A stretch of DNA of 64,000 nt from Pyrinomonadaceae bacterium (lineage in GTDB: Bacteria > Acidobacteriota > Blastocatellia > Pyrinomonadales > Pyrinomonadaceae). Below the pieces are notes generated by a model that worked only from the letters and a program-made list of their open reading frames with translations, ran no database searches and was not told the origin of the DNA. This document shows, piece by piece, positions 121-25,335 of this stretch. The stretch lies in contig JAJTWY010000016.1 in assembly GCA_021463165.1 (NCBI GenBank), positions 1-64,000 of the forward strand. The letters run 5' to 3'. Each line of letters starts with the position of its first letter. Positions within the stretch are counted from its first letter, which is position 1. A program made the position numbers and the translations under genes.

Positions 121-1575
121 TTTTGTGTCGAAGCCTATAGCCACTGATCGAGATGAATGGTCATCGAACCTGACTCCTGAGTAGTAACGATACTTTTCGC
201 CAACGGCTACGTTTTCAACGGGTGCTTCAAAGCGGCGGATCGCGACTTCGTTTAGGTATTTTTCAAGAAAGCCGGTCCAGGTAGTCTGTTTTGCCCGTCC
301 CGTATCCTTGATAAAAAAGAGCCCCTCGTAGTTTTTCTTTGAGACTTCGTAGCCTTCGCGCGACCACGGAAAGAAAACAGATACACCGTTCGAGTACTGA
401 TAAGCAGCTCCACTGAAACCGCTTAGGATGACCGCTTGCCTTAGTGCTGACAATACTAGACGACAGGTAGAACGGAGGTACTCCAGGATCTCGAGGTCGT
501 CCCCACCACCGAGCTCCTCGATCACAAGTCCGCATTCGCGATCAAGCAATTCGCAAAGATCACCCAGGTCAACATTCTGGTCGTACATGTATGACTGGCA
601 CTTCCAATGAACCTGCAGGAGAACGCGCTCCATCTGGCGATAAATGCGACTGGACGGAACAGCAAAACACTGAAGGAGCGCGACCGCTAGTTCGTCGAAG
701 GCATCGGCCAGCTCCGGCAAACGGCAGAGATCCCAGGCAGCCATATCGACAGATACTCCGCCAACGGTGAATGCGTCCTGCGATTTGATAAACTCGCGAA
801 CAAACCGTTCGGCGAACCTCGACCCGTTATAGACATCATCATCGCAGGCCAGGCTTCCAAGGATCTTGGCGTAGGTCCATCCTGCACTTGGAACGCTGCC
901 TTCAGAGGCGATCATCGTTTTTGCGACCTTGCTGAACTCATAACCGACCTCGAGCATTCCCATCACGCATGCGTCGAAACCGAGTAGGTCGAGCGGTTGG
1001 CCAAGCAAAACTGTTGTATCGCGCTCGCGGATATCAGCGGGAACGTCATCCGCTTCGACAATTCGTCCGAGTTCGTCTTTATCCCGAACCAGCCGTCGGA
1101 GGGTGATGTAGAGGTTGGCCATCTTCATTGTTTTCCCGGATGTTTCGTCGCGAAACAGCCCGATGTCCTGAAAACCGAGCGAATGACCTGAGAATATGAA
1201 GGCGTATTTCTTCGCTCGCCGGCCGTAGGTGATCTCGCCACCGGGGTTATCGACCTCGACCTTGTTAACGCACCAATCGACGAAATTAAGTACCGAGCGA
1301 AAATCGGCGGCGTTCTCGTTCTGTTTCAAGGGCACGTCGTGCAGCTTGTCGGGAACCTTGTACGAACGGACGTACTTTGGCCTATCTGGGTCTGAAAAGT
1401 CGCAATACAGAGTAGGGATCGAGGGAGAGTTCCCATCGTAATAAACGAAGAGATTCGGGCTGTTCTCACCTTTGCCGGCAACGCCCTTGATCTGTTCCAT
1501 GGCATATGCCATATCGACGGCGAGATTGTTGTCGCCAGCCATATAAACCATTATCGTCCACTCTTTTTGACTCAT
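1..1575 (-). CDS. Clostripain-family (C11) cysteine peptidase with octapeptide-repeat tail, 3' end outside window
   Basis: This reading frame is open for 525 codons from ATG 1575 to the window edge, which is why the ORF track, requiring a stop, shows only shadows. It begins MSQKEWTIMVYMAGDNNL, the typical opening of C11 peptidases. A His in FSGHSLGF (about residue 130) and a Cys in LLGFDACVMGM (about residue 200) fit the His/Cys dyad of this caspase-like fold. The family cleaves after basic residues and is often autoactivated. No signal peptide is visible, so a cytoplasmic role is likely unless another export route exists. The C-terminal part turns into the LAGERDSK repeat, highly charged and probably helical. 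A strong Shine-Dalgarno (AAGGAG) lies about nine bases before the ATG. It sits 88 bp downstream of, and in line with, the ECF sigma gene. The family call is firm; the role is unknown. Confidence 0.85.
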   Translation of the reverse strand, partial: MSQKEWTIMVYMAGDNNLAVDMAYAMEQIKGVAGKGENSPNLFVYYDGNSPSIPTLYCDFSDPDRPKYVRSYKVPDKLHDVPLKQNENAADFRSVLNFVDWCVNKVEVDNPGGEITYGRRAKKYAFIFSGHSLGFQDIGLFRDETSGKTMKMANLYITLRRLVRDKDELGRIVEADDVPADIRERDTTVLLGQPLDLLGFDACVMGMLEVGYEFSKVAKTMIASEGSVPSAGWTYAKILGSLACDDDVYNGSRFAERFVREFIKSQDAFTVGGVSVDMAAWDLCRLPELADAFDELAVALLQCFAVPSSRIYRQMERVLLQVHWKCQSYMYDQNVDLGDLCELLDRECGLVIEELGGGDDLEILEYLRSTCRLVLSALRQAVILSGFSGAAYQYSNGVSVFFPWSREGYEVSKKNYEGLFFIKDTGRAKQTTWTGFLEKYLNEVAIRRFEAPVENVAVGEKYRYYSGVRFDDHSSRSVAIGFDTKLAGERDSKLAGEKDSKLAGERDSKLAGERDSKLAGEKDSK

Positions 1576-1663
1576 TTTCTTGTCTCCTTAGGAGAAAACT
1601 AAAGGTCCGACTTCATTTAAATAAGCGACAGAATGTCTCGATCGGGGTAATCGACGTCTATCA

Positions 1664-2236
1664 CTATTCGAGGCGTTGACGCAGCCACGCCCTTGCGATC
1701 TGCCAATCCCGTTTGACCGTCTCCCGGGATATACCTAGGATCTCCGCTGTTTCATCAAGAGTCATTCCGCCGAAGTACTTTAACTCAACGATCTGCGCCT
1801 GACGAGGATCAAATTCGCTGAGCTCGGCCAGAGCGCTGTCGAGGGCGACGAGGTCGATGCTCGTCGGGGCGATGTGGACATTGTGGGCCTCAGCCAGCGG
1901 AAGGGTCGCGTGCTCACCGCCGCGTTTTTCGCGACGACGCGTTCGGGCGTGATCTACCAGGATCCTCCGCATAGATTGTGCCGCGATGGCAAAGAAATGA
2001 TTGCGGTCGGCCCACTCGATGTCCTGCTTGCCAACCAATTTGATAAATGCCTCGTGGGCGAGCCCAGTTGTTTGGAGCGTGTGTCCGGGGCGTTCGCCAC
2101 GGAGATAGGCCGATGCCCGCCGGCGCAGGTCGGCGTAGATGTAGCCGGTCAAACTGTCCAGCGCGGCGGCATCGCCCAAGCGCCAGTCGCGCAACAGATC
2201 TGTGATCGGCGGCGGATCGAGGTGGTCGTCTGACAT
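1664..2236 (-). CDS. ECF-type RNA polymerase sigma factor (TIGR02999-like)
   Basis: This 190-residue sigma-70 family protein directs RNA polymerase to an unknown regulon. I chose ATG 2236 (MSDDHLDPPPITDLL) because the longer ORF to 2527 runs antisense into the kinase gene and its extra residues look non-coding. Region 2 contains LTGYIYADLRRRASAYLRGERPGHTLQ, a pattern typical of the TIGR02999 group common in Acidobacteria and Planctomycetes. Region 4 shows a helix-turn-helix in MTLDETAEILGISRETVKRDW. No anti-sigma factor is adjacent. The gene is divergent from the Ser/Thr kinase, sharing a 133-bp intergenic region, and precedes the C11 peptidase in the same direction. Regulation through the neighbouring kinase is possible but unproven. 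Confidence 0.88.
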   Translation of the reverse strand: MSDDHLDPPPITDLLRDWRLGDAAALDSLTGYIYADLRRRASAYLRGERPGHTLQTTGLAHEAFIKLVGKQDIEWADRNHFFAIAAQSMRRILVDHARTRRREKRGGEHATLPLAEAHNVHIAPTSIDLVALDSALAELSEFDPRQAQIVELKYFGGMTLDETAEILGISRETVKRDWQIARAWLRQRLE

Positions 2237-2369
2237 CCATCGAATATCATATGCTGTTTTTCCCAATGGCAAAGGCGAAAACGAGCCTGTCGGCATGAAT
2301 TTGTCGCTTATGCTATTGATCGGGTAATTGTGATCGGAAAGGAATTCGGCTACGCTCGATCTGTTTCTC

Positions 2370-5150
2370 ATGACACCTGAACGCTGGGACAAGATAAAGA
2401 ACCTGTTTTCCTCGGCCCAGGAATGCTCTGGAGCTGAGCGAAGCGAATTTCTGCTCAGGGCCTGCGGTGGCGACCTGGAACTCAAAGATGAGGTCGAAAA
2501 GCTGCTCAATTCCGCCCGGGATGACAAGTTTCTCGGTCAATCGGCGGTTGCCGAGATCGTCAGCATGTTCGAAGGCGGGACAACGGCTGCCCTCGGCACT
2601 CGAGCGTCCGGCGATACTCCGTCGCGGTACGACGAGGGTGACCTGATAAACGATCGTTACGAGATCATCCGGCTGCTGGGGCGCGGCGGGATGGGCGAGG
2701 TCTATCTAGCCAACGACAAGCGCATCAACCGCAATGTCGCGCTCAAGGTGCTGCATCCTGACCTAGTTTCGAATAAAGAGAGTCTTGGTCGATTCGAAAG
2801 AGAGGCGCAGGCCGTTTCGGCTCTCAACCACCCCAACATTATTACGATCTATGAGTTCGACAAGACGGACGACGGGTCGTCATATATTGTTTCCGAGTAT
2901 GTCGATGGAACGAGCCTGAACCGGATCATAGGTTCCGGGTTAGAGCCGGACAAGGCCCTCGATATCGCCATACAGGCGGCATCGGCCCTTTCTGCCGCAC
3001 ATGAAGCGGGCATCATCCACCGTGATGTAAAACCGGAAAATATAGTGGTTCGGCCTGACGGCTATATTAAGGTCTTGGATTTCGGCCTCGCAAAGCTTGC
3101 TGATAAGCGGGACGGCTCGGCAGGGTCCGGAATGTCGGGATCCGAGGATCCGACGGTCGCGCTGCACAAAACGCGCCCCGGCGCGGTGATGGGTACGGCG
3201 GCATACATGTCGCCGGAACAGGCTCGCGGGCTGAGCGTTGATGCACGGACCGATATTTGGAGCGTCGGGGTCGTTCTCTACGAAATGCTTACCGGCCGTC
3301 GTCCGTTCGTCGGCGATACATCCGCCGATATTATCGTCGGGGTGCTCCTGCGCGAACCGTCGCCGATCGCATCCTACCGGAGCGATGTCTCGCCCGAGCT
3401 TGAGTGGGTCGTGTCGAAGGCCCTTTCCAAAAATGTTGAGGCTCGCTATCAAACATCCAAAGAGCTGAAAGCCGATCTTGAAAAGATCAAACGTCGAGTC
3501 GAGTTTGAATCGACCTCACAACAGAGCGGAGCGTCCATATCAGATGTCGACCTGAAAGTAGCGGCCGTTCCCACTGCGGGAGGTGAGGCCCGACCAACTG
3601 ACGGAGGTGTCGACGAGGTCGGCGCACAGCGACCACGCGGCTTTCACAGCGTCGTCGCCGAGGCCCGATCGCATCGAGTGCGTTCTGCCTTGGCGGCGGT
3701 CACCGTAATTGCCGTCCTCGCCTCGGCCACCTATTTTGGCGCTCGTTGGTTCGGAGGGCACCGGCCTGTCGATTCGATAGCCGTCTTGCCATTTGACAAT
3801 CCGACAGCCGATCCGTCCCTCGATCCTATTGCTGGCGGCCTGACCGAAGCCCTGATCGATCGATTGGCGGAACTCCCGCAGCTAAAGGTCATTTCGCGGC
3901 GGTCAAGTTCCCGTTTTGTTGGATCGGACCTCGATCCGCGAGAAGCGGCATTGAGACTCGGCGTTCGGGCAGTCGTTACGGGGAGCGTTTCAAAGGTTGG
4001 CAACCAGATCAGCGTACGTATCGATGTGATCGACGCAAACGACGATCGCCAGCTCGGCGGCGGTCAGTATCAACGGTCGGCCGACGATCTCGTCCGGCTG
4101 TCCGATGAGGTCGCCCGCGCGGCGGTCGCCAAGCTTGAACTAAACCTTTCGCCGGATCAATCGCGCCGTCTGGCCAAACGGAGTACGGAGAACTCCGAAT
4201 CGTTCCAGTACTATCTGAACGGCCTAAAGGCAATAAACGGCGACGGCAACGGCCGCGATCAGGCCCGAGCATTCTTCGAAAAGGCTGTCGAACTCGATCC
4301 GGATTTCGCCCTCGCCTATGCTGAGATCGCCTGGCTATATTGGCAGGATGCGAACGCAAGCAGTGATCCCGGAAAGGTGATGCCGAAGGCTCGTGCGGCG
4401 GCTGAGAAGGCTCTTGCGATAGATCCCGAACTCGCGAAAGCTCATGTCGCGAAGGCAGTGATCCACGAATATGAGTTCGATTGGGTCAATGCGGAACGGG
4501 AGTATCGGCGGGCGATCGAGTTAAGTCCAAGTCTCGACTTTGCCCGCAATAACTATGCATTTTATCTTTCGGTGCTCGACCGTCAGGACGAGGCTCTGGC
4601 CCAACTCGAAGAGCAACGCAAGCGCGATCCGTTGAATCAACGGCAGAGTTTATTGCAGAAGGCCATTGTGCTTGTGCAGGGACGACGATTTGATGAGGCG
4701 CTGCAGGCATATCAAGCCGCACAAGCGGTTGATCCGTCAAAACCGATCCCGGACTTTGCTCTCGGTTATGCGTATGCCGGGAAAGGAATGAAGGCCGAGG
4801 CCATCTCATACTACAAAAAGGCGGTCGACGATCTTGGTGGGCCTGATAAATACAGCCAGCCGCTTGTCTACCTCGCTGCGATCTACGCCAGTCAACCCGA
4901 TCGCCGGGCCGAAGCTAAGGCTCTCCTCGCAAAGATCGAGGCGATGAATACCTACGTTTCGCCGGCGCTCCTCGCTATCATTTACACCGAACTTGACGAC
5001 AAGGACAAGGCCATAGAACTGCTGGAACGCAGCTACATCAACCGCGACCTCCTGCTCCGCTACATAAGGACGGGATATGAATACGACAAGCTGCGAAATG
5101 ATGCCAGATTTGCCGACCTTGAGCGTCGGTCGGGTCTCACGGCACAATAG
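2370..5150 (+). CDS. Membrane Ser/Thr protein kinase with TolB-like and TPR domains
   Basis: The 926-residue protein has an N-terminal helical segment starting MTPERWDKIK, then a Hanks-type kinase domain at about residues 96-370. Visible kinase motifs are GRGGMGEV (glycine loop), VALKVL (lysine), HRDVKPEN (catalytic loop) and DFGLAKL. One transmembrane helix lies near residues 437-460. After it come a TolB/FlgO-like domain beginning SIAVLPFDNP and TPR repeats to the C-terminus. It is expected to phosphorylate cytoplasmic proteins in response to signals sensed by the extracytoplasmic TPR part. It is divergent from an ECF sigma gene. The downstream zinc-ribbon gene shares the TolB-like/TPR part, suggesting domain shuffling among local paralogues. 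The substrate is unknown. Confidence 0.92.
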   Translation: MTPERWDKIKNLFSSAQECSGAERSEFLLRACGGDLELKDEVEKLLNSARDDKFLGQSAVAEIVSMFEGGTTAALGTRASGDTPSRYDEGDLINDRYEIIRLLGRGGMGEVYLANDKRINRNVALKVLHPDLVSNKESLGRFEREAQAVSALNHPNIITIYEFDKTDDGSSYIVSEYVDGTSLNRIIGSGLEPDKALDIAIQAASALSAAHEAGIIHRDVKPENIVVRPDGYIKVLDFGLAKLADKRDGSAGSGMSGSEDPTVALHKTRPGAVMGTAAYMSPEQARGLSVDARTDIWSVGVVLYEMLTGRRPFVGDTSADIIVGVLLREPSPIASYRSDVSPELEWVVSKALSKNVEARYQTSKELKADLEKIKRRVEFESTSQQSGASISDVDLKVAAVPTAGGEARPTDGGVDEVGAQRPRGFHSVVAEARSHRVRSALAAVTVIAVLASATYFGARWFGGHRPVDSIAVLPFDNPTADPSLDPIAGGLTEALIDRLAELPQLKVISRRSSSRFVGSDLDPREAALRLGVRAVVTGSVSKVGNQISVRIDVIDANDDRQLGGGQYQRSADDLVRLSDEVARAAVAKLELNLSPDQSRRLAKRSTENSESFQYYLNGLKAINGDGNGRDQARAFFEKAVELDPDFALAYAEIAWLYWQDANASSDPGKVMPKARAAAEKALAIDPELAKAHVAKAVIHEYEFDWVNAEREYRRAIELSPSLDFARNNYAFYLSVLDRQDEALAQLEEQRKRDPLNQRQSLLQKAIVLVQGRRFDEALQAYQAAQAVDPSKPIPDFALGYAYAGKGMKAEAISYYKKAVDDLGGPDKYSQPLVYLAAIYASQPDRRAEAKALLAKIEAMNTYVSPALLAIIYTELDDKDKAIELLERSYINRDLLLRYIRTGYEYDKLRNDARFADLERRSGLTAQ

Positions 5151-5160
5151 CTTGCACACT

Positions 5161-5964
5161 ATGATCTTTACCGATATTGAACTTTCAAGAAGGTTGGAGC
5201 GAACCGAGGCTCGCTCGAACGTCGATTTTGTTGAAGCGAGGCGACGCCTGTTCCCGGATAGCGGAGCGTGTTGGAAAGAGGTCGGCGGGGCTTATGCAAT
5301 GTTCGACGGCGTCGGTTCCCCATTGACTCAGACTTTCGGTTTGGGCGTTTTCGAGGATGCCAGCCCGGAACATCTCGACGAGCTGGAGAGTTTCTTCACA
5401 GAACGCGGGGCCGAAGTGTTTCATGAGGTTAGCCCGTTGGCTGACCAAGCGATACTGAGGCTGCTTGGCGATCGCGGATACCGGCCGGTCGAGCTTACCA
5501 CCGTAATGTATCGCGAACTCATTGATGCGGGGCTTACGGTCTCCGGCATTGTCGCGCGACCTATCGAGAGTGACGAAGCCGATCTATGGGCCGAGACAGC
5601 CGCCGCAGGCTGGGCGACGATCGATCCGGGGCTTGCGGATTTTATGCTTGATTTCGGGAAGATCGCTGCCCGAACAGAGCATTCGAAGCCATTCATCGCC
5701 GAGTTCGACGGTCAAAACATCGCTGCCGGCGGGCTTATTATCTTCGACGATATTTGCATCCTTGCCGGTGCGTCGACAAAGCCCGAATTCCGTAACCGCG
5801 GTGCGCAGAACGCATTGCTCGCAGCCCGACTCGATTTTGCTAGGGAACATGGTTGCCGCCTCGCGATGATGTGCGCGGCCCCTAGCAGCCAATCGCAGAA
5901 AAATGCGCAAAAGAATGGCTTTCAGATCGCTTATACACGGATAAAGTGGCAGCTTTTGGGGTAG
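5161..5964 (+). CDS. GNAT-family N-acetyltransferase
   Basis: A 267-residue protein starting at ATG 5161 (MIFTDIELSRR); the ORF-track start at 5077 lies inside the kinase gene. The C-terminal half carries the acetyl-CoA pyrophosphate-binding motif in STKPEFRNRGAQNALL, followed by a helix (LDFAREHGC), as in GNAT enzymes. The N-terminal half is a second, more degenerate GNAT-like unit (VGGAYAMFDGVGSPLTQ). It follows the kinase by 10 bp and precedes the zinc-ribbon/TPR gene by 32 bp, so the three may be co-transcribed. The acyl acceptor is unknown. Confidence 0.82.
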   Translation: MIFTDIELSRRLERTEARSNVDFVEARRRLFPDSGACWKEVGGAYAMFDGVGSPLTQTFGLGVFEDASPEHLDELESFFTERGAEVFHEVSPLADQAILRLLGDRGYRPVELTTVMYRELIDAGLTVSGIVARPIESDEADLWAETAAAGWATIDPGLADFMLDFGKIAARTEHSKPFIAEFDGQNIAAGGLIIFDDICILAGASTKPEFRNRGAQNALLAARLDFAREHGCRLAMMCAAPSSQSQKNAQKNGFQIAYTRIKWQLLG

Positions 5965-5996
5965 TATGTTCTCGTTACCTGTCAAGCCTGAAAACG

Positions 5997-7589
5997 ATGA
6001 AGCGCTGCCCAAAATGCTCACGGAAATATTTTGACGAGACGCAGAACTTCTGTCTCGACGACGGTGCGTGGTTGGTGGACGATGCTGTCGGCCCAGACCA
6101 AGCGACCGTTATTCTTCCGGGTCCCGAATCACCGACACGGCTATTCGTGGCTGCTCCGGACGCAATGACGGTATCGATGTCCGGCTATCAGCCGAACTCG
6201 ATCGCCGTTCTGCCCTTCGCTCACCTGTCGAGCGACCCTGACGACGAGTATTTCTGTGATGGCCTCGCGGAAGAACTGATCAACGCGCTTTCGCGAGTTG
6301 AAGATCTAAAAGTGGTCGCACGTTCGTCCGCCTTCTCGTTCAGGGGAAAGAACGTAGATGTTGCCACAGTAGGTGCTGCGCTCGGGGTCAGCAACGTCGT
6401 CGAGGGCTCGGTACGTAAGTTTGGCGAGCGGATGAGGATCAGCGTGTCGCTCACGAACACGTCGGACGGCTTTAACATTTGGTCCGACAAATACGATACC
6501 GAAATGCGCGACATCTTCGACGTGCAGGACGAGATAACGCGTTCGGTCGTCACCTCGTTAAAGGAAAAGCTGCTCGGCCGGCCGACGAACGAAGACGACC
6601 GAATGACAGCGCTGATCGAGGAGCTGAAGCATCACGCGCACGACGTGACGGCCTACCAATTCTATCTCCGCGGACGATTCCTGTTCAATAAATTCAATGA
6701 ACAGGACCTCTACCGCGCCTTGGCATCGTTTCAGGAGGCCCTCGAGATCGCACCGGATTTTGCTGAGGCGTATTCGGGCATCGCCGACGTCTATATGTGG
6801 CTGACCGAACTCGGCCCGATCGCGCCGCGGGAAGGGATGCCGAAGGCAAAGGAAGCCGCGTTGAAAGCGATAGAACTAAACCCCGGCCTCTCCGAGGCTC
6901 ATACATCGCTCGCGATCGTTCTGCAGGAGTTCGAATACGATTTCGAGCGGGCCGAGACCGAATATAAACGAGCGATCGAACTAAATCCGAACAACGCCCT
7001 TGCCCATCAGATGTATGGAGCCTTGCTCGCACAGCTTGACCGATTTGAAGAAGCAGAACGGCGTTTCAAGCGATCACTCGCACTTGACCCGCTTTCGCCG
7101 ATGGGAAGCTGGATCTATCCGTTTGGGTTATTCCTCGCCCGGCGTTATGACGAATCGATCGAACGTGCGAACAAGATCCTCGAGCTCGATGGCAATTTTG
7201 CCGCAGCGTACCTGATCCTTTCATTCAACTACCAGATGAAGGGCGACACGGAGGCGTCGCAGGAGAATTATTGCCGTTTTCTTGAGATATTTGGTTTGAC
7301 CGAGGTCGCGGCAGCTGCGAGGGAAGGTTTTTCGCGAGGCGGCTGGGACGGGTTCTTACATGCAATGACCACGCAGGAGGTTCGTCAGTGCGTGACCGCC
7401 TATATCTCGGCTGTGTATTTCACCGCCCTAGGCGAAACGGATTCCGCTCTTGACAGTCTCGAACAGTCGTACGAACTCCGCGAAGGCCACATTGTGATGC
7501 TCAACGTCGATCCGCGTTTTGATGGGATTCGAGAGCATCCGCGATTTCAGAGGCTCCTGGAGAAAGTTGGTTTTCCGGATCAAAAATGA
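5997..7589 (+). CDS. Zinc-ribbon, TolB-like, TPR repeat protein
   Basis: I place the start at ATG 5997 (MKRCPKCSRKYFD) because this N-terminal zinc ribbon with CPKC and a later Cys (NFCLDDG) is a familiar opening; the ORF-track start adds 17 unlikely residues. The product has 530 residues. A TolB/FlgO-like domain follows, starting NSIAVLPFAHLSSDPDDEYF, then TPRs such as ALASFQEALEIAPDFAEAY to the C-terminus. No transmembrane helix or kinase domain is evident, so it resembles the sensory half of the upstream kinase placed on a zinc ribbon. TPRs imply protein-protein binding; partners are unknown. A truncated copy of its N-terminus lies immediately downstream. Confidence 0.85.
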   Translation: MKRCPKCSRKYFDETQNFCLDDGAWLVDDAVGPDQATVILPGPESPTRLFVAAPDAMTVSMSGYQPNSIAVLPFAHLSSDPDDEYFCDGLAEELINALSRVEDLKVVARSSAFSFRGKNVDVATVGAALGVSNVVEGSVRKFGERMRISVSLTNTSDGFNIWSDKYDTEMRDIFDVQDEITRSVVTSLKEKLLGRPTNEDDRMTALIEELKHHAHDVTAYQFYLRGRFLFNKFNEQDLYRALASFQEALEIAPDFAEAYSGIADVYMWLTELGPIAPREGMPKAKEAALKAIELNPGLSEAHTSLAIVLQEFEYDFERAETEYKRAIELNPNNALAHQMYGALLAQLDRFEEAERRFKRSLALDPLSPMGSWIYPFGLFLARRYDESIERANKILELDGNFAAAYLILSFNYQMKGDTEASQENYCRFLEIFGLTEVAAAAREGFSRGGWDGFLHAMTTQEVRQCVTAYISAVYFTALGETDSALDSLEQSYELREGHIVMLNVDPRFDGIREHPRFQRLLEKVGFPDQK

Positions 7590-7592
7590 ACG

Positions 7593-7694
7593 ATGAAACG
7601 ATGTCCAGAATGTAGGCGAGACTATTACGACGACACGCTCCTGTATTGTCTCGACGACGGAAACAGACAGCTAATAGGACCCGCGACCAGGTAA
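7593..7694 (+). pseudogene. 33-codon relic of a second zinc-ribbon protein
   Basis: An open frame of 33 codons starts four bases after the previous stop and reads MKRCPECRRDYYDDTLLYCLDDG before an in-frame TAA. It matches the first residues of the upstream gene (MKRCPKCSRKYFDETQNFCLDDG), keeping all three cysteines. It is too short for the ORF track. It is best read as the 5' remnant of a tandem duplicate whose TolB-like/TPR part is lost. It could still be translated as a mini zinc ribbon. Confidence 0.7.
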
Positions 7695-19969: not shown

Positions 19970-22576
19970 CTACTGAGTTTTCAGCAATTCGTCAATGCGA
20001 ACGGGTTTGTAACCTCTTATTATCAATAGACTAATAAGCTCGTCTATCTTGTCATGGAACTTGTCCGTTCGCTTCGGGCCTGAACCGATATGCGTCAGCA
20101 GGATGAATCCGTTCAGGCCTGCGGGTTCCTTGGCTTCGTACTCGCCGATCCGGGTCATGATAGCCTCGCTTGAGATGTAGTTCTTGTCGTCATCGGTTGT
20201 ATAGTCCGCGTTTGAGCGGGTCCCGGGCGTGAAGTTGATGATCTTGTGGCCAAGCGCCTCGGTCCAGTTGGCTATCTCCTCGTTGTACCACTCGTAGGGA
20301 GGCATGAAGAACGGAACCTGTGTCCGGTCAATTCCGAAAGGGCGCATTGCGGCGAAATTGTCGTTCAGGTCGCGCTCAAATTGCTCACGGGTAACGAGCG
20401 TTTTGTTTCGGTCGGCCCAATCGGCATAGAGCAGGTGCTGATCGGAGTGCGGGCCGAGGTAATGGCCGTCCTTTTTTAGGCGTTCGATGATCTGGCGATT
20501 GGCCCGCGTTCGGTAAAAGCGGCCGGTAAGGAAGAATGACGCTTTGATGTTGTGTCGCTGCAATGCCTCAGCTATCACGGTCCCGCCCTCGGCAAATTCA
20601 TCGCCGGTGAAGACGAGAGACATACGTTTGGAGGTCTTATCGCCTCGCGTGATGCCTCCTTCGACGTAGGTCAACCGCGGATCATTCGCCGGCGAGGCGG
20701 ACGCCCGCTCAGGCAGCCGCTTCTGACTCCACAGGGCCATCACGAGTATGGCATCAGCCGTGCCGTCCATGGTTGGTTCGTTGGTCGCATAGTCGCCGAC
20801 ATCATCGTGATAGACGACCTCGGCAGGCTGGAAGATCGCAAATTCGTCGGGTTTGTGAAGAGAAACTCCGATGAGGCCCTTATATGTCTCGGCAGCGATC
20901 GGCCCGTCGACGAGGCCGCCGCGGACCTGCTTTTTCAATAGCTGCACGGTCGGCAAATGAGTGTCCTCGGGGAATTCGCCGCCTGCGGGCAGGCCCTCGA
21001 ACATCGACGTGCCCCAAGGATTTGTGCCGAAAAGCCAATCGCGGTGGGCGATCTTCGAATCGCGGAATCTCCTGTCGCCTGTCATTCGCTCGTACAGTTC
21101 GACCTGCGTGATGTAGGCCACAACGAGATTATTCGAGCACCAGAGAAACGGTACGCCGATCCCGTAGGCGTTTGTTTTGGCGCGCTCGACAATGCGCTCG
21201 ATGCCGGAGCGATAATACCCGGCGAGTTCCCGTTTTGTCCTCGCATCGACGAGCGGATAGAGTGCGAAGTGTCCCACGTTCGTAAACGGGTACATCTCGT
21301 AGTGTCTCGACATCTGATCGCCCATCTGCGAGTCGGGATATTCCATCCACGATGTGGTTCCGGCGAGCTTGGCATAACGTTTAGCGTCTGCGAGATACGA
21401 GAACTTTCTCGTCGCCTTGTAAAGTTCGGCGGCCGCGTACTCCATATCGTCGGCCCACGTCGTTTCGTTGTAGCGGTAGGGAGCACCGAAGGAATTGCCT
21501 TGTTGAAATCCTTCCTGTCGCTTGCCCATCGCGTAAAGCTCTTCAGCCGCCTTGAGGCACTTGGCGGAAAACCCGACATCTTTCAGATCAATTTTCCATA
21601 TCCGCGAGCCCATTGCCATTGCTGCCGCCGAACGGCCGGCGATATTTGCGACACCGGTCGATCTGCTCTGAAACTGCGAGAGGCCCTGCGGCTTGCCGTC
21701 GGCAAAATATGCGGGCCGATAGCTGTTCGGGCCCCAGCCGTAGTCCGCGTTGTCGTTATCCGGCATCTTGAAGCCGCGGTGGTCGCGGTCGTCAGCCACC
21801 TGGTGAATGAGTTGGTCGGCCGCAGGATGGAGCTTATGGATCCAGTCGAGGCCCCATCGTGCTTCGTCCAAAATATCGGCTATGCCGTTCGGGCGGTTTT
21901 CGCGTCCCAACGCGTCGGTAAAGTCACCGAACTTGGCCTTTTCGAGCTCATAGGCGAGCATCATTCGCGCGGTCGCGTTGCTGGCCGTTATCAGATACTT
22001 CAGCTGGTCACCGGCATCGTGCCAGCCGCCCGTTGCATCGACAAAGGTTTCGTCCGGCATCGGCCCATAGAATGAGCGCCCGTCACGTTGATGGCAAACC
22101 ATGTCGAGAAATGGATTGTAGCCACACCGCTGCTGCCGCATGAAAAAAAGCAGATCCTCGTGAAAACCCGGGTAGGCTCCGATGGTGAATTCTTTCGAGA
22201 CCGCACCGGCCTTTACGAGCTGGATCGAATGCTTGCCCGACGCCTCCGATGACATCTTTGAAAAGTCCAGTTCGTAATGATGCGGAAATGACGATCTCCA
22301 GGCCGGGGCCTCGATCGGCTTGATACGGCCAGACCACGCAATATTGCCCGCGGGATCCCTAACGAGAAAAGCCTCGTCTTCGAGCGGCGCTTTTGAGAAC
22401 GCGATAGCAACCTTTTTGTCCTTCGGAAGGTATCCCGCCTGGTTGACACGAATGACAACATCCTGCGCTGTGACGGTGAAAAATGCGATAAAAATCAGTG
22501 ACGTGAATTCCAACAAACGCCGCGAAGCGGTGAAGAGGAAATAGCCAGATGCGGAGCTTCTGGTTTTTTGCCGCAT
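19970..22576 (-). CDS. Secreted GH9 glycoside hydrolase fused to a polysaccharide deacetylase-like domain
   Basis: I start at ATG 22576 because residues before it look untranslated and this start gives a signal segment (LLEFTSLIFIAFFTVTAQ); the product has 868 residues. An Ig-like CelD_N domain (VIRVNQAGYLPKDKK) is followed by a GH9 catalytic domain with the nucleophile-side motif GGWHDAGDQ (about residue 184) and the acid motif TNEPTMDG (about 598). The last third is a NodB-like deacetylase: HSDQH (about 711) and PPYEWY (about 760) match motifs 2 and 3, but motif 1 is VFTGDEFAEGG (about 655) instead of TFDDGP. It would cleave a beta-glucan-type polymer and perhaps deacetylate it outside the cell. 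Activity of the second domain is uncertain. Confidence 0.9.
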   Translation of the reverse strand: MRQKTRSSASGYFLFTASRRLLEFTSLIFIAFFTVTAQDVVIRVNQAGYLPKDKKVAIAFSKAPLEDEAFLVRDPAGNIAWSGRIKPIEAPAWRSSFPHHYELDFSKMSSEASGKHSIQLVKAGAVSKEFTIGAYPGFHEDLLFFMRQQRCGYNPFLDMVCHQRDGRSFYGPMPDETFVDATGGWHDAGDQLKYLITASNATARMMLAYELEKAKFGDFTDALGRENRPNGIADILDEARWGLDWIHKLHPAADQLIHQVADDRDHRGFKMPDNDNADYGWGPNSYRPAYFADGKPQGLSQFQSRSTGVANIAGRSAAAMAMGSRIWKIDLKDVGFSAKCLKAAEELYAMGKRQEGFQQGNSFGAPYRYNETTWADDMEYAAAELYKATRKFSYLADAKRYAKLAGTTSWMEYPDSQMGDQMSRHYEMYPFTNVGHFALYPLVDARTKRELAGYYRSGIERIVERAKTNAYGIGVPFLWCSNNLVVAYITQVELYERMTGDRRFRDSKIAHRDWLFGTNPWGTSMFEGLPAGGEFPEDTHLPTVQLLKKQVRGGLVDGPIAAETYKGLIGVSLHKPDEFAIFQPAEVVYHDDVGDYATNEPTMDGTADAILVMALWSQKRLPERASASPANDPRLTYVEGGITRGDKTSKRMSLVFTGDEFAEGGTVIAEALQRHNIKASFFLTGRFYRTRANRQIIERLKKDGHYLGPHSDQHLLYADWADRNKTLVTREQFERDLNDNFAAMRPFGIDRTQVPFFMPPYEWYNEEIANWTEALGHKIINFTPGTRSNADYTTDDDKNYISSEAIMTRIGEYEAKEPAGLNGFILLTHIGSGPKRTDKFHDKIDELISLLIIRGYKPVRIDELLKTQ

Positions 22577-22734
22577 ACGATCTGTGCGTTGAAGATGCAC
22601 AGAGTAGGGCACGCAACTACAAGTATTCGGGGTCGTACTCAACATTGTTGTTTTCGAGCAATCGGACATATTCATGTTGATATGATTCACGCTAATGATG
22701 AACTGTGGCGGCCATCGTCGAGGGAAACGTTAGC

Positions 22735-23898
22735 CTATATTGTTCCTCGCTTCAATGCCCCGTTTGCGATGCATCCCAAAGCGGCGACGAACTTGTCGAA
22801 CCCGGCGAACCGCGCGTCACCCGTGAAGCCCCTGACGTACCTCGCATAGATCTGCTGTGCGATCACCGCAATTTTAAATGTGCCAAAAACGTAATAGAAA
22901 AGCATGTCAGGAACGGCGCGTCCTAAACTTTCCGAATACATATCGACGAGTTGCTGCCGTGTGATGTTCTCCATCAAGACCCTGGGGTTGAACGGCATCG
23001 AAAGCATCTCGTCACCCGCGTCACCAGACATCCAATATCCCAGCGTAGTGCCGAGGTCCATTAGCGGGTCGCCGACCGTAACCATTTCCCAATCGAGCAC
23101 CGCGGTGACGCGCGTGAGGTCGGCGGGGTCGAGCATCACGTTGTCAAATTTATAGTCGTTATGGATCAGCGACGCGCCCGATTCGGTTGGAATGTTTGCG
23201 TTAAGCCATACGATCGTCTTTTCGAGCGCGTCCCAATCGTGCGTCTTCGCGGCAAAATAGCGTTTCGTCCAGCCTTCGATCTGGCGGCGGTTGTAGCCTT
23301 CGATGCGTCCCAATGTTTCGAGGCCCGCCGCGCTGTAGTCGAGGCCGTGAAGGCCGGCCAGGTTCTCGATGAAGGAGCGGCAGACATCGAGACGGAAGTC
23401 TTCGGAAGTTTCAAGGTCGTGTTTCGCCTTTGCTAACGCGCGGGCTTCAGCACTTTCGCCGTACGTCCCAGGCATTCTGCCTCGAATGATCAGGCCGTGG
23501 CGGCGTTCCATCAGATAGAACTCCGAGCCGATCACCGATGCGTCACCACAGAAAAGCAGCGGCTTCGGTGCGGGGGCATAGACGGCTGCGAGTTTCGAGA
23601 GAACATCAAATTCGCGACGCATGTCGTGAGCCGTCTTGACCGTGTTCCCGAACGGAGGACGGCGGAGGACGAATTCCTGCGTCCCAAAGCCGGCTGGATC
23701 TGCACACGGCTCGCTCGCCTCACCTGCCGCCGCCGGCCGTTCCGGCACGATCCGCACCAGATACGTCAGGTTCGAGCTGCCGCCAGGGAACTGTTCGATC
23801 TCGATAGGGCCGTGCGTCACAAGTTCGCCTTCAAGGTACGCACTCAGCCGTTCGATATCGATCTCTTCGCCCTGCCTTACCGGTTTGGTTTCCCCCAT
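22735..23898 (-). CDS. Aminoglycoside-phosphotransferase-like kinase (ACAD10/11- or LvaA-like)
   Basis: The start ATG 23898 (MGETKPVRQGEEIDIERL) gives 387 residues; the upstream part of the ORF is non-homologous. Kinase-like motifs are LIHNDYKFDNVMLD (catalytic loop) and AVLDWEMVTVGDPLMDLG (metal-binding). This is the acyl-CoA-metabolism branch of the APH family, fused to acyl-CoA dehydrogenase in ACAD10/11 and free-standing in the Pseudomonas levulinate pathway (LvaA). It likely phosphorylates a hydroxyacyl-CoA. It is divergent from an acyl-CoA dehydrogenase with 225 bp between the starts, supporting a joint function. Confidence 0.85.
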   Translation of the reverse strand: MGETKPVRQGEEIDIERLSAYLEGELVTHGPIEIEQFPGGSSNLTYLVRIVPERPAAAGEASEPCADPAGFGTQEFVLRRPPFGNTVKTAHDMRREFDVLSKLAAVYAPAPKPLLFCGDASVIGSEFYLMERRHGLIIRGRMPGTYGESAEARALAKAKHDLETSEDFRLDVCRSFIENLAGLHGLDYSAAGLETLGRIEGYNRRQIEGWTKRYFAAKTHDWDALEKTIVWLNANIPTESGASLIHNDYKFDNVMLDPADLTRVTAVLDWEMVTVGDPLMDLGTTLGYWMSGDAGDEMLSMPFNPRVLMENITRQQLVDMYSESLGRAVPDMLFYYVFGTFKIAVIAQQIYARYVRGFTGDARFAGFDKFVAALGCIANGALKRGTI

Positions 23899-24123
23899 TC
23901 CATCGATCGCGCCATTCGTCAACGGCAAACCGATAATGCCAGAAAAAACGTCGCTCCGGCAAACGGATGAAACAACCCATATCCTTGAGCCCGTTGCCCG
24001 GGATCGCTGCTCAACGCCGCCACGAAATCGCCGAGCATCCAGTCTGTGCAAAAGTATTGCATAAATAAGACAAGATGTCAAGCGCTTTTCGACCACGGCG
24101 GACATTCGTGTAAAATCCTGATA

Positions 24124-25335
24124 ATGAATTTCGAAGTTTGTGAGAAGGCCCGTGAGGTTGCGCGACTTTTGAGTGCGTTCATGGATGAGAACGTCTATCC
24201 GAACGAAACCGCGTACTTGAATGAGCTTGAAAGCGGTGACCGTTGGCGGCCGCTTGAGTTGATCGAGGATCTGAAGGCCAAGGCGAGGGCTGCGGGGTTA
24301 TGGAACCTTTTTTTGCCGGCCGAGTCGGGCCTGACAAATCTGGAATACGCACCGCTGGCCGAGATCATGGGGCGTGTGATATGGGCCAGCGAGGTCTTTA
24401 ACTGCTCGGCTCCGGACACGGGGAATATGGAGGTCCTGCACCTCTACGGTACCGAGGATCAGAAGGCGAAGTGGCTGCGGCCATTGCTCGATGGCGAGAT
24501 ACGCTCGTGTTTTTCGATGACCGAGCCGAATGTTGCCTCGTCGGACGCAACGAATATTGAAGCCTCGATAGTCCGCGACGGCGACGACTATGTTCTGAAT
24601 GGTGAGAAATGGTGGTCGACGGGTGGCGGTGACGCGCGCTGTAGGCTTTCGATCTTTATGGGGAAGACTGACGAAACTGCACCGAAGCACTTGCAGCAGT
24701 CGATGATCCTAGTCCCGATGGACACACCCGGCGTGGTCGTTCAGCGGCAGTTGAATGTGTTCGGATTTGATGACGCGCCGAGTGGGCATTCGCAAATCTC
24801 CTTTATCAATGTTCGCGTTCCCAAGGAGAACATTCTGCTCGGCGAAGGCCGCGGGTTTGAAATAGCCCAAGGGCGGCTTGGGCCGGGCCGCGTTCATCAC
24901 TGCATGCGGCTGATCGGGATCGCGGAACGTTCGCTGGAGATGATGTGCGCGCGTGCGAGGGCTCGTGTTGCGTTCGGAAGGCCGATCGCCGAACAAGGCG
25001 TCGTTCGCCAATGGATCGCGGAGGCGAGATGCGCCATCGATCAGGCGAGGCTTTTGGTACTGAGAACGGCCTGGCTGATGGACACGGCAGGGAACAAGGC
25101 GGCCCGTCGTGAGATCGCCATGATAAAGGCTGTCGTGCCGCAAATGGCGCTAAAAGTGATCGACCGGGCCATCCAAGTCCACGGCGGCGGAGGCGTTTCG
25201 CAGGATCATCCGCTGACCCAGTTCTGGATCTATGCCCGGTCGCTGCGTCTGGCTGATGGGCCGGACGAAGTTCACCTTGAATCAATTGCCAAGATGGAGA
25301 TCAGCGGCCGGCCGTCGGCTGTCGTCGATCAGTGA
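24124..25335 (+). CDS. Acyl-CoA dehydrogenase (ACAD11-like)
   Basis: ATG 24124 ([16 protein letters not shown]) gives 403 residues; the ORF-track start lies in the divergent promoter region. ACAD motifs include [19 protein letters not shown]-contact [26 protein letters not shown], and C-terminal [15 protein letters not shown] and [18 protein letters not shown]. These are most like the ACAD10/11 group. With the neighbouring kinase, the expected chemistry is conversion of a 4-hydroxyacyl-CoA through a 4-phospho intermediate to an enoyl- or 3-hydroxyacyl-CoA. Simple medium- or branched-chain oxidation is the alternative. Confidence 0.9.

Follow-up and report, generated by a model that had tools for sequence, protein, structure and literature searches.

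A conserved fusion of a GH9 glycoside hydrolase and a NodB-like domain with an altered motif 1 in Pyrinomonadaceae and other bacteria

Gene architecture and host genome context

The window analyzed here is a stretch of 64,000 nucleotides from contig JAJTWY010000016.1 of a Pyrinomonadaceae bacterium. On its minus strand, an open frame spans positions 19970-22690, with a GTG at 22690 as its upstream limit. Starting from the Met at 22576 gives a gene (19970..22576, minus strand), with the same limits as in the earlier note, predicted to encode an 868-amino-acid protein with a plausible signal peptide; this protein is referred to as GH9-PDA, and residues are numbered throughout in the 868-residue form. 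Three Pfam domains, each exceeding its curated cutoff, follow one another in the order CelD_N, Glyco_hydro_9, and Polysacc_deac_1. The first is a CelD_N Ig-like domain (residues 41 to 111, positions 22244..22456; PF02927, E 3.4e-10), the second is the GH9 catalytic domain (residues 138 to 612, positions 20741..22165; PF00759, E 8.4e-69), and the third is a C-terminal NodB/CE4-like domain, abbreviated PDA (residues 645 to 866, positions 19979..20644; PF01522, E 1e-11), which was also identified from an AlphaFold2 model and Foldseek. The probable signal peptide (22466..22576, ending in FFTVTA-QD) was assigned by sequence inspection, and the model places a low-pLDDT helix at residues 12 to 32. 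The whole protein was modeled with a pLDDT of 86.2. A GH9 domain joined to a deacetylase-like domain in one secreted protein, as the earlier note on this DNA had proposed, is therefore indicated by the Pfam domains and the plausible signal peptide.

Decay to a pseudogene was ruled out by the unbroken ORF and by conservation among relatives, and an assembly artifact was ruled out by full-length homologues with 63 to 81% identity from other assemblies. The gene had no match in PADLOC, and a plasmid search with GH9-PDA as the query returned only distant GH9 domains, none reaching 80% query coverage. No description of GH9-CE4 fusions was found in the literature searched by that wording.

The neighbors of the GH9-PDA gene encode a TPR protein and an APH-family protein and are not amino-sugar genes; further ORFs of the window were recognized by eye as encoding a dihydropyrimidine-dehydrogenase-like protein and an acyl-CoA dehydrogenase. 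The APH-family gene (22735-24105) overlaps the start of the divergent acyl-CoA-dehydrogenase-like ORF (24046-25335), and several relatives from the Blastocatellia likewise have an APH-family gene upstream of GH9-PDA. Its candidacy as an amino-sugar kinase was dropped, as it adjoins the acyl-CoA-dehydrogenase-like ORF, and a supposed Gemmatimonadota partner proved to be a formamidopyrimidine glycosylase grouped by loose clustering.

Elsewhere in the host genome, where the GH9-PDA gene is the sole GH9, there are four further PF01522 places, two GH20 genes, NagA (C2:109148), and MurQ (C2:95833); no GH18 was found in this genome. The MurQ gene sits in a BadF-MurQ-unknown-SSF-GH3 run (L182, G000:C2:90000-109000, 1358-7685) comprising a GH3, a sodium-solute symporter, an ORF with no Pfam match, MurQ, and a BadF-type ATPase/kinase; the run is likely a MurNAc catabolic cluster and is unlinked to the GH9-PDA gene. 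At another locus (L183, G000:C56:22000-28000), a GH20 beta-hexosaminidase adjoins a NanE-ROK fusion, with nearby ORFs that appear sulfatase-like by eye. This gene set fits the use of GlcNAc/MurNAc oligosaccharides over polymeric chitin or cellulose, although fit is not proof.

Conserved and altered residues of the two domains

Alignment to solved GH9 enzymes placed the catalytic aspartates at D187 and D190 (DAGD of WHDAGD, 22007..22018, minus strand); the general acid is E600 (TNEP, 20777..20779, minus strand). Among members of the GH9 clade, the Asp pair is kept in 107/107 and 106/107 and E600 in 107/107, in agreement with the earlier note's view that the GH9 catalytic residues are intact. 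The features of the family were found in both sequence (PF00759, E 8e-69) and fold, which is (alpha/alpha)6 with Foldseek TMt values of up to 0.80. The PHHR substrate-binding motif is a common feature of GH9 but does not define the family; its His is kept in 107/107 clade members, and its Arg is absent across the clade. An unusual DDRDH motif (residues 262 to 266, positions 21779-21793) is invariant in the same 107 sequences. By both sequence and fold, the nearest solved structures are the Ig-like-domain endoglucanases 3x17, J30, CelD, and BoGH9A (TMt about 0.79). The Vibrio exo-glucosaminidases PBPRA0520 and VC0615 matched more weakly (TMt about 0.67, about 15-16% identity), and membership of the GH9 domain in their subgroup, which is marked by long loops that block the -2 subsite, is therefore not claimed.

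The NodB domain modeled alone reached a pLDDT of 97.1 and a pTM of 0.93, and its Foldseek matches were CE4 enzymes. The top match was an acetylxylan esterase (7fbw), and the GlcNAc deacetylase Bc1960 and the pseudoenzyme BA3943 were also near the top. The solved sequences nearest to the PDA profile are those of the PdaA/BA0424 MurNAc-deacetylase group.

The FTGDEF and HSxxH motifs were present as previously described, the latter as HSDQH (motif 2, 20435..20449), and all motifs were counted in an alignment of 81 homologous PDA domains. The motif-1 metal-ligand position, D659 in GH9-PDA (20600..20602), is Asp in 42 domains, His in 31, and Gly in 8, each Gly being followed by an Asp (a shifted Asp). 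Both motif-2 histidines (H710 and H714) are present in 81/81, as are both members of the CE4 acid pair, the motif-4 Asp (D791, 20204..20206) and the motif-5 His (H829, 20090..20092). The catalytic-base Asp is absent from every domain, the aligned position being Thr, Ser, or Ala and never acidic. Motif 3 (M758-P-P-Y-E762-W763, 20288..20305) reads MPPYEWYN compared with the usual RPPYG, and the Arg partner of the base is replaced by Leu, Met, or Ile in 81/81, a change that the earlier note had overlooked. The Glu-Trp pair directly after the motif-3 Tyr (E762 and W763) is invariant and newly fixed relative to CE4. In CE4 enzymes, the motif-3 Arg tethers the base Asp, the motif-4 Asp tethers the acid His, and the Tyr backbone contributes to the oxyanion hole (PMC5855634). 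Set against this scheme, the PDA pattern corresponds to one charge-relay pair lost together, with the other pair and the metal residues retained. Because two defining catalytic residues, the motif-1 base Asp and the motif-3 Arg, were tested and are absent, GH9-PDA should not, judging by its motifs, be classed as a standard CE4 enzyme.

Profile alignment against a canonical CE4 protein from a genome of the same genus (L013) sets F-T-[G]-D against F-D-D, by which the base Asp would have become Thr, one Gly would have been inserted, and the metal Asp would have been kept. HMMER alignment against PdaA leaves motif 1 ungapped and moves the Asp by one residue. The metal triad residues are kept as D/H-H-H or with a shifted Asp. 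Since the two alignments differ by one residue, sequence does not fix exactly where the Asp sits. As to the earlier suspicion that metal binding or catalysis may be changed, the base Asp and its Arg are lost in 81/81, and the metal-site residues appear to be retained. A search for homologues sharing the altered motif, as the earlier note had suggested, revealed the alteration to be the rule. Absence of a metal site together with absence of motif conservation, which that note held would overturn its reading, was not found, the motif being strongly conserved; that reading is supported in part. Because it occurs in all 81 homologues examined, the altered motif is, on comparative grounds, neither chance nor decay.

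A maximum-likelihood tree built from the 81 domains, with low support on many of its inner branches and a bootstrap that had not fully settled, requires 20 changes over six ligand/architecture groups. Domains with different ligands are neighbors in this tree (L035 [His] and L066 [Asp], L145 [shifted Asp] and L161 [His], and L049 [Asp] and L040 [shifted Asp]), and the repeated exchange of the three forms fits a metal ligand kept under selection. From these residues, we infer that PDA may bind a metal.

The same pattern could arise if the NodB domain were a pseudoenzyme, having kept its fold and metal-site residues, lost hydrolysis, and come to serve GH9 as a module for glycan binding or positioning. 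The invariable loss of the base Asp and Arg is consistent with this, as are the high Foldseek rank of BA3943, a CE4 pseudoenzyme, and the reported inactivity of the CE4 relative ECU11_0510, which lacks the base Asp (PMC5855634). However, neither the acid His/Asp pair nor the motif-2 ligands vary, and the motif-1 ligand position exchanges only among metal-competent forms, a constraint that a binding-only domain would not need, and PDA also occurs as a separate gene that is unlinked to GH9 in some genomes. We regard a pseudoenzyme as unlikely, if still a serious contender.

Distribution and gene neighborhoods

Within the genus of the window, the domain was found in 10/36 other genomes, at 75 to 83% identity, and in 0/23 sampled genomes of other genera of the same class. 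Relatives were found in genome contigs of Acidobacteriota, many Bacteroidota, Neomarinimicrobiota, Ignavibacteriota, and KSB1. GH9 and PDA form a single protein in most relatives, across several phyla, and are encoded by separate adjacent genes, in either order, in other Bacteroidota. Many Cyclobacteriaceae loci contain GH9 with no adjoining PDA, and one such genome has PDA on another contig. Across 396 Bacteroidota genomes, PDA was present in 41, clade GH9 in 41, and both in 36 (Fisher P = 3e-40), and where PDA was neither fused nor adjacent, GH9 was present in 5/10 genomes versus 5/355 genomes with no PDA (P = 1e-6); both P values ignore shared ancestry and so overstate independence. The fusion, the motif pattern, and the co-occurrence are well supported. 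At one locus (L150:7120-9027), the partner joined to the same altered PDA is not GH9 but a Beta-lactamase2 domain.

Gene neighborhoods in relatives were also compared, with family membership beyond the proteins actually scanned assigned by BLAST clustering only. Three loci (L077, L152, and L154) contain MurQ with a sodium-solute symporter and a metallophosphatase, MurQ being above the TIGR00274 cutoff in L077 and L152, and L077 also contains GHL10. L149 carries genes for a NagX-like DUF5009/HGSNAT protein, NagA (above cutoff), SIS, MFS, and ROK-cluster proteins. According to one proposal (PMC9007349), NagX acetylates glucosamine in the periplasm, and a GH9 that releases glucosamine would fit such a role. 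A GH18 occurs with ROK, MFS, and SIS in L169, and parts of a ROK/MFS/SIS/YdjC/DeoR set are common to L031, L033, L046, L048, and L088, with ROK/MFS/SIS/YdjC in L033 and a ChbG-like YdjC upstream in L046 and L048. TonB-dependent receptor, PDA, and GH9 genes occur together in L042 and L063, the latter adding a GH3-beta-lactamase, and in L147 a gamma-glutamyltranspeptidase adjoins a lone PDA. A metallophosphatase-beta-propeller protein of about 600 amino acids recurs near GH9/PDA genes (L063:10603-12438 and L077:3089-4945). Among 102 genes within two places of PDA or GH9 in evenly drawn genomes, no family had more than five members. Because this pooled scan shows no dominant family, the amino-sugar context of GH9-PDA, which occurs at a minority of loci and is not general, is suggestive only. 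The scanned genes included no cellulase or hemicellulase neighbors. In those relatives whose neighborhoods are informative, the context concerns amino sugars (chitosan-like or peptidoglycan-like) and not cellulose, consistent with the earlier proposal of a chitosan-like substrate.

An alternative reading is that PDA is a metal hydrolase that differs in kind or specificity, acting for example on MurNAc-specific groups or on the muramic lactam of peptidoglycan fragments. In addition to the closeness of the PDA profile to the PdaA/BA0424 group, this would accord with the MurQ operons and the GHL10, with the PDA-Beta-lactamase2 fusion and GH3-beta-lactamase, and with the gamma-glutamyltranspeptidase beside PDA. 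The GH18, NagA, and NagX-like neighbors elsewhere point instead to GlcNAc, and the folds nearest to PDA are a mix of GlcNAc deacetylases and acetylxylan esterases; such a hydrolase is considered quite improbable. A plant cell wall enzyme, in which a GH9 endoglucanase and an O-acetyl esterase act on acetylated glucomannan or xyloglucan, is very improbable, since the closeness of GH9 to endoglucanases (including the BoGH9A xyloglucanase) and of PDA to an acetylxylan esterase is set against a single GH9 in the host genome, the cellulase- and hemicellulase-free neighborhoods scanned, and the loss of the PHHR Arg from the whole GH9 clade.

Proposed function and relation to known systems

GH9-PDA appears to be a little-studied enzyme that breaks chains of amino sugars and not cellulose. 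The reading preferred here, at somewhat short of an even chance, is that it is a secreted protein combining an active amino-sugar N-deacetylase with a GH9 cutter. We infer metal binding, deacetylation, E762 as base, the substrate, and the order of steps as follows. The substrate would be amino-sugar beta-glycan oligosaccharides, either chitooligosaccharide-like or peptidoglycan-derived (GlcNAc/MurNAc). The NodB domain would de-N-acetylate these by means of a metal held by (Asp or His)-His-His, with the His/Asp acid pair retained, and the invariant E762, beside the oxyanion-hole Tyr, may replace the lost Asp/Arg base pair. The GH9 domain would then cleave the de-N-acetylated unit, as proposed by reference to the Vibrio GH9 glucosaminidases, which prefer GlcN units and do not cut (GlcNAc)2 (PMC6096475), and the products would feed the host GlcNAc/MurNAc pathways. 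The invariant metal and acid-pair residues together with the family-wide absence of the base/Arg pair, the repeated ligand exchange, the confident CE4 fold, the GH9/PDA co-occurrence, the amino-sugar operons of some relatives, the existence of GlcN-preferring GH9 enzymes, and the gene set of the host genome count in favor of this reading. The reported inactivity of ECU11_0510, the greater nearness of the GH9 fold to endoglucanases, the position of the host gene away from amino-sugar genes, and the lack of a dominant family in the pooled neighbor scan count against it. The fuller version, an active metal deacetylase with a new base (candidate E762) and an Asp/His ligand, acting on oligosaccharides of peptidoglycan or chitin in tandem with a GH9 that is a glucosaminidase or muramidase, is offered tentatively, as less likely than not.

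Roughly a tenth of the sampled Bacteroidota genomes carry the GH9/PDA pair, as does part of one Pyrinomonadaceae genus, and automatic annotation would label it as a cellulase and a polysaccharide deacetylase. If the amino-sugar reading is true, both labels mislead, and the protein serves amino-sugar recycling with a deacetylase that uses a different catalytic base. If the fuller version holds, PDA would represent a mechanistically distinct deacetylase family accompanied by a new GH9 specificity. PDA also offers a clean case for asking how a NodB enzyme works, or ceases to work, when one of two charge-relay pairs has gone and the other is fixed.

Compared to the GH9 endoglucanases 3x17, J30 (5u0h), CelD (1clc), and BoGH9A (6dht), GH9-PDA has the same Ig-like and (alpha/alpha)6 GH9 domains and the same catalytic DxxD and Glu, but it differs in the loss of the PHHR Arg, the invariant DDRDH, the fused or paired NodB domain, and a context in which cellulolytic genes were not seen. 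The Vibrionaceae GH9 exo-glucosaminidases (PBPRA0520 and VC0615; PMC6096475), with their separate chitooligosaccharide deacetylase, are alike in the proposed amino-sugar pairing of GH9 and NodB, whereas their GH9 and deacetylase are unfused and the Vibrio deacetylases belong to a distant NodB subclass. PdaA and BA0424 (1w17 and 2j13) have the NodB fold, HSxxH, and motif-5 His in common with PDA; in the alignment, PdaA retains the base Asp of motif 1 (FDNG) as well as the Arg of motif 3, and GH9-PDA has neither. BoPDA of Bacteroides ovatus (PMC11713874) and CtAxeA are metal-binding CE4 enzymes with a noncanonical metal site that lose a motif-2 His and keep the motif-1 aspartates, the reverse of GH9-PDA. 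BA3943 (7bkf), ECU11_0510, and BA0150 (4m1b) combine the NodB fold with an altered motif 1, as PDA does, but are isolated cases, whereas in PDA the acid pair and the motif-2 ligands are invariant over 81 sequences from several phyla, with a new Glu-Trp pair fixed.
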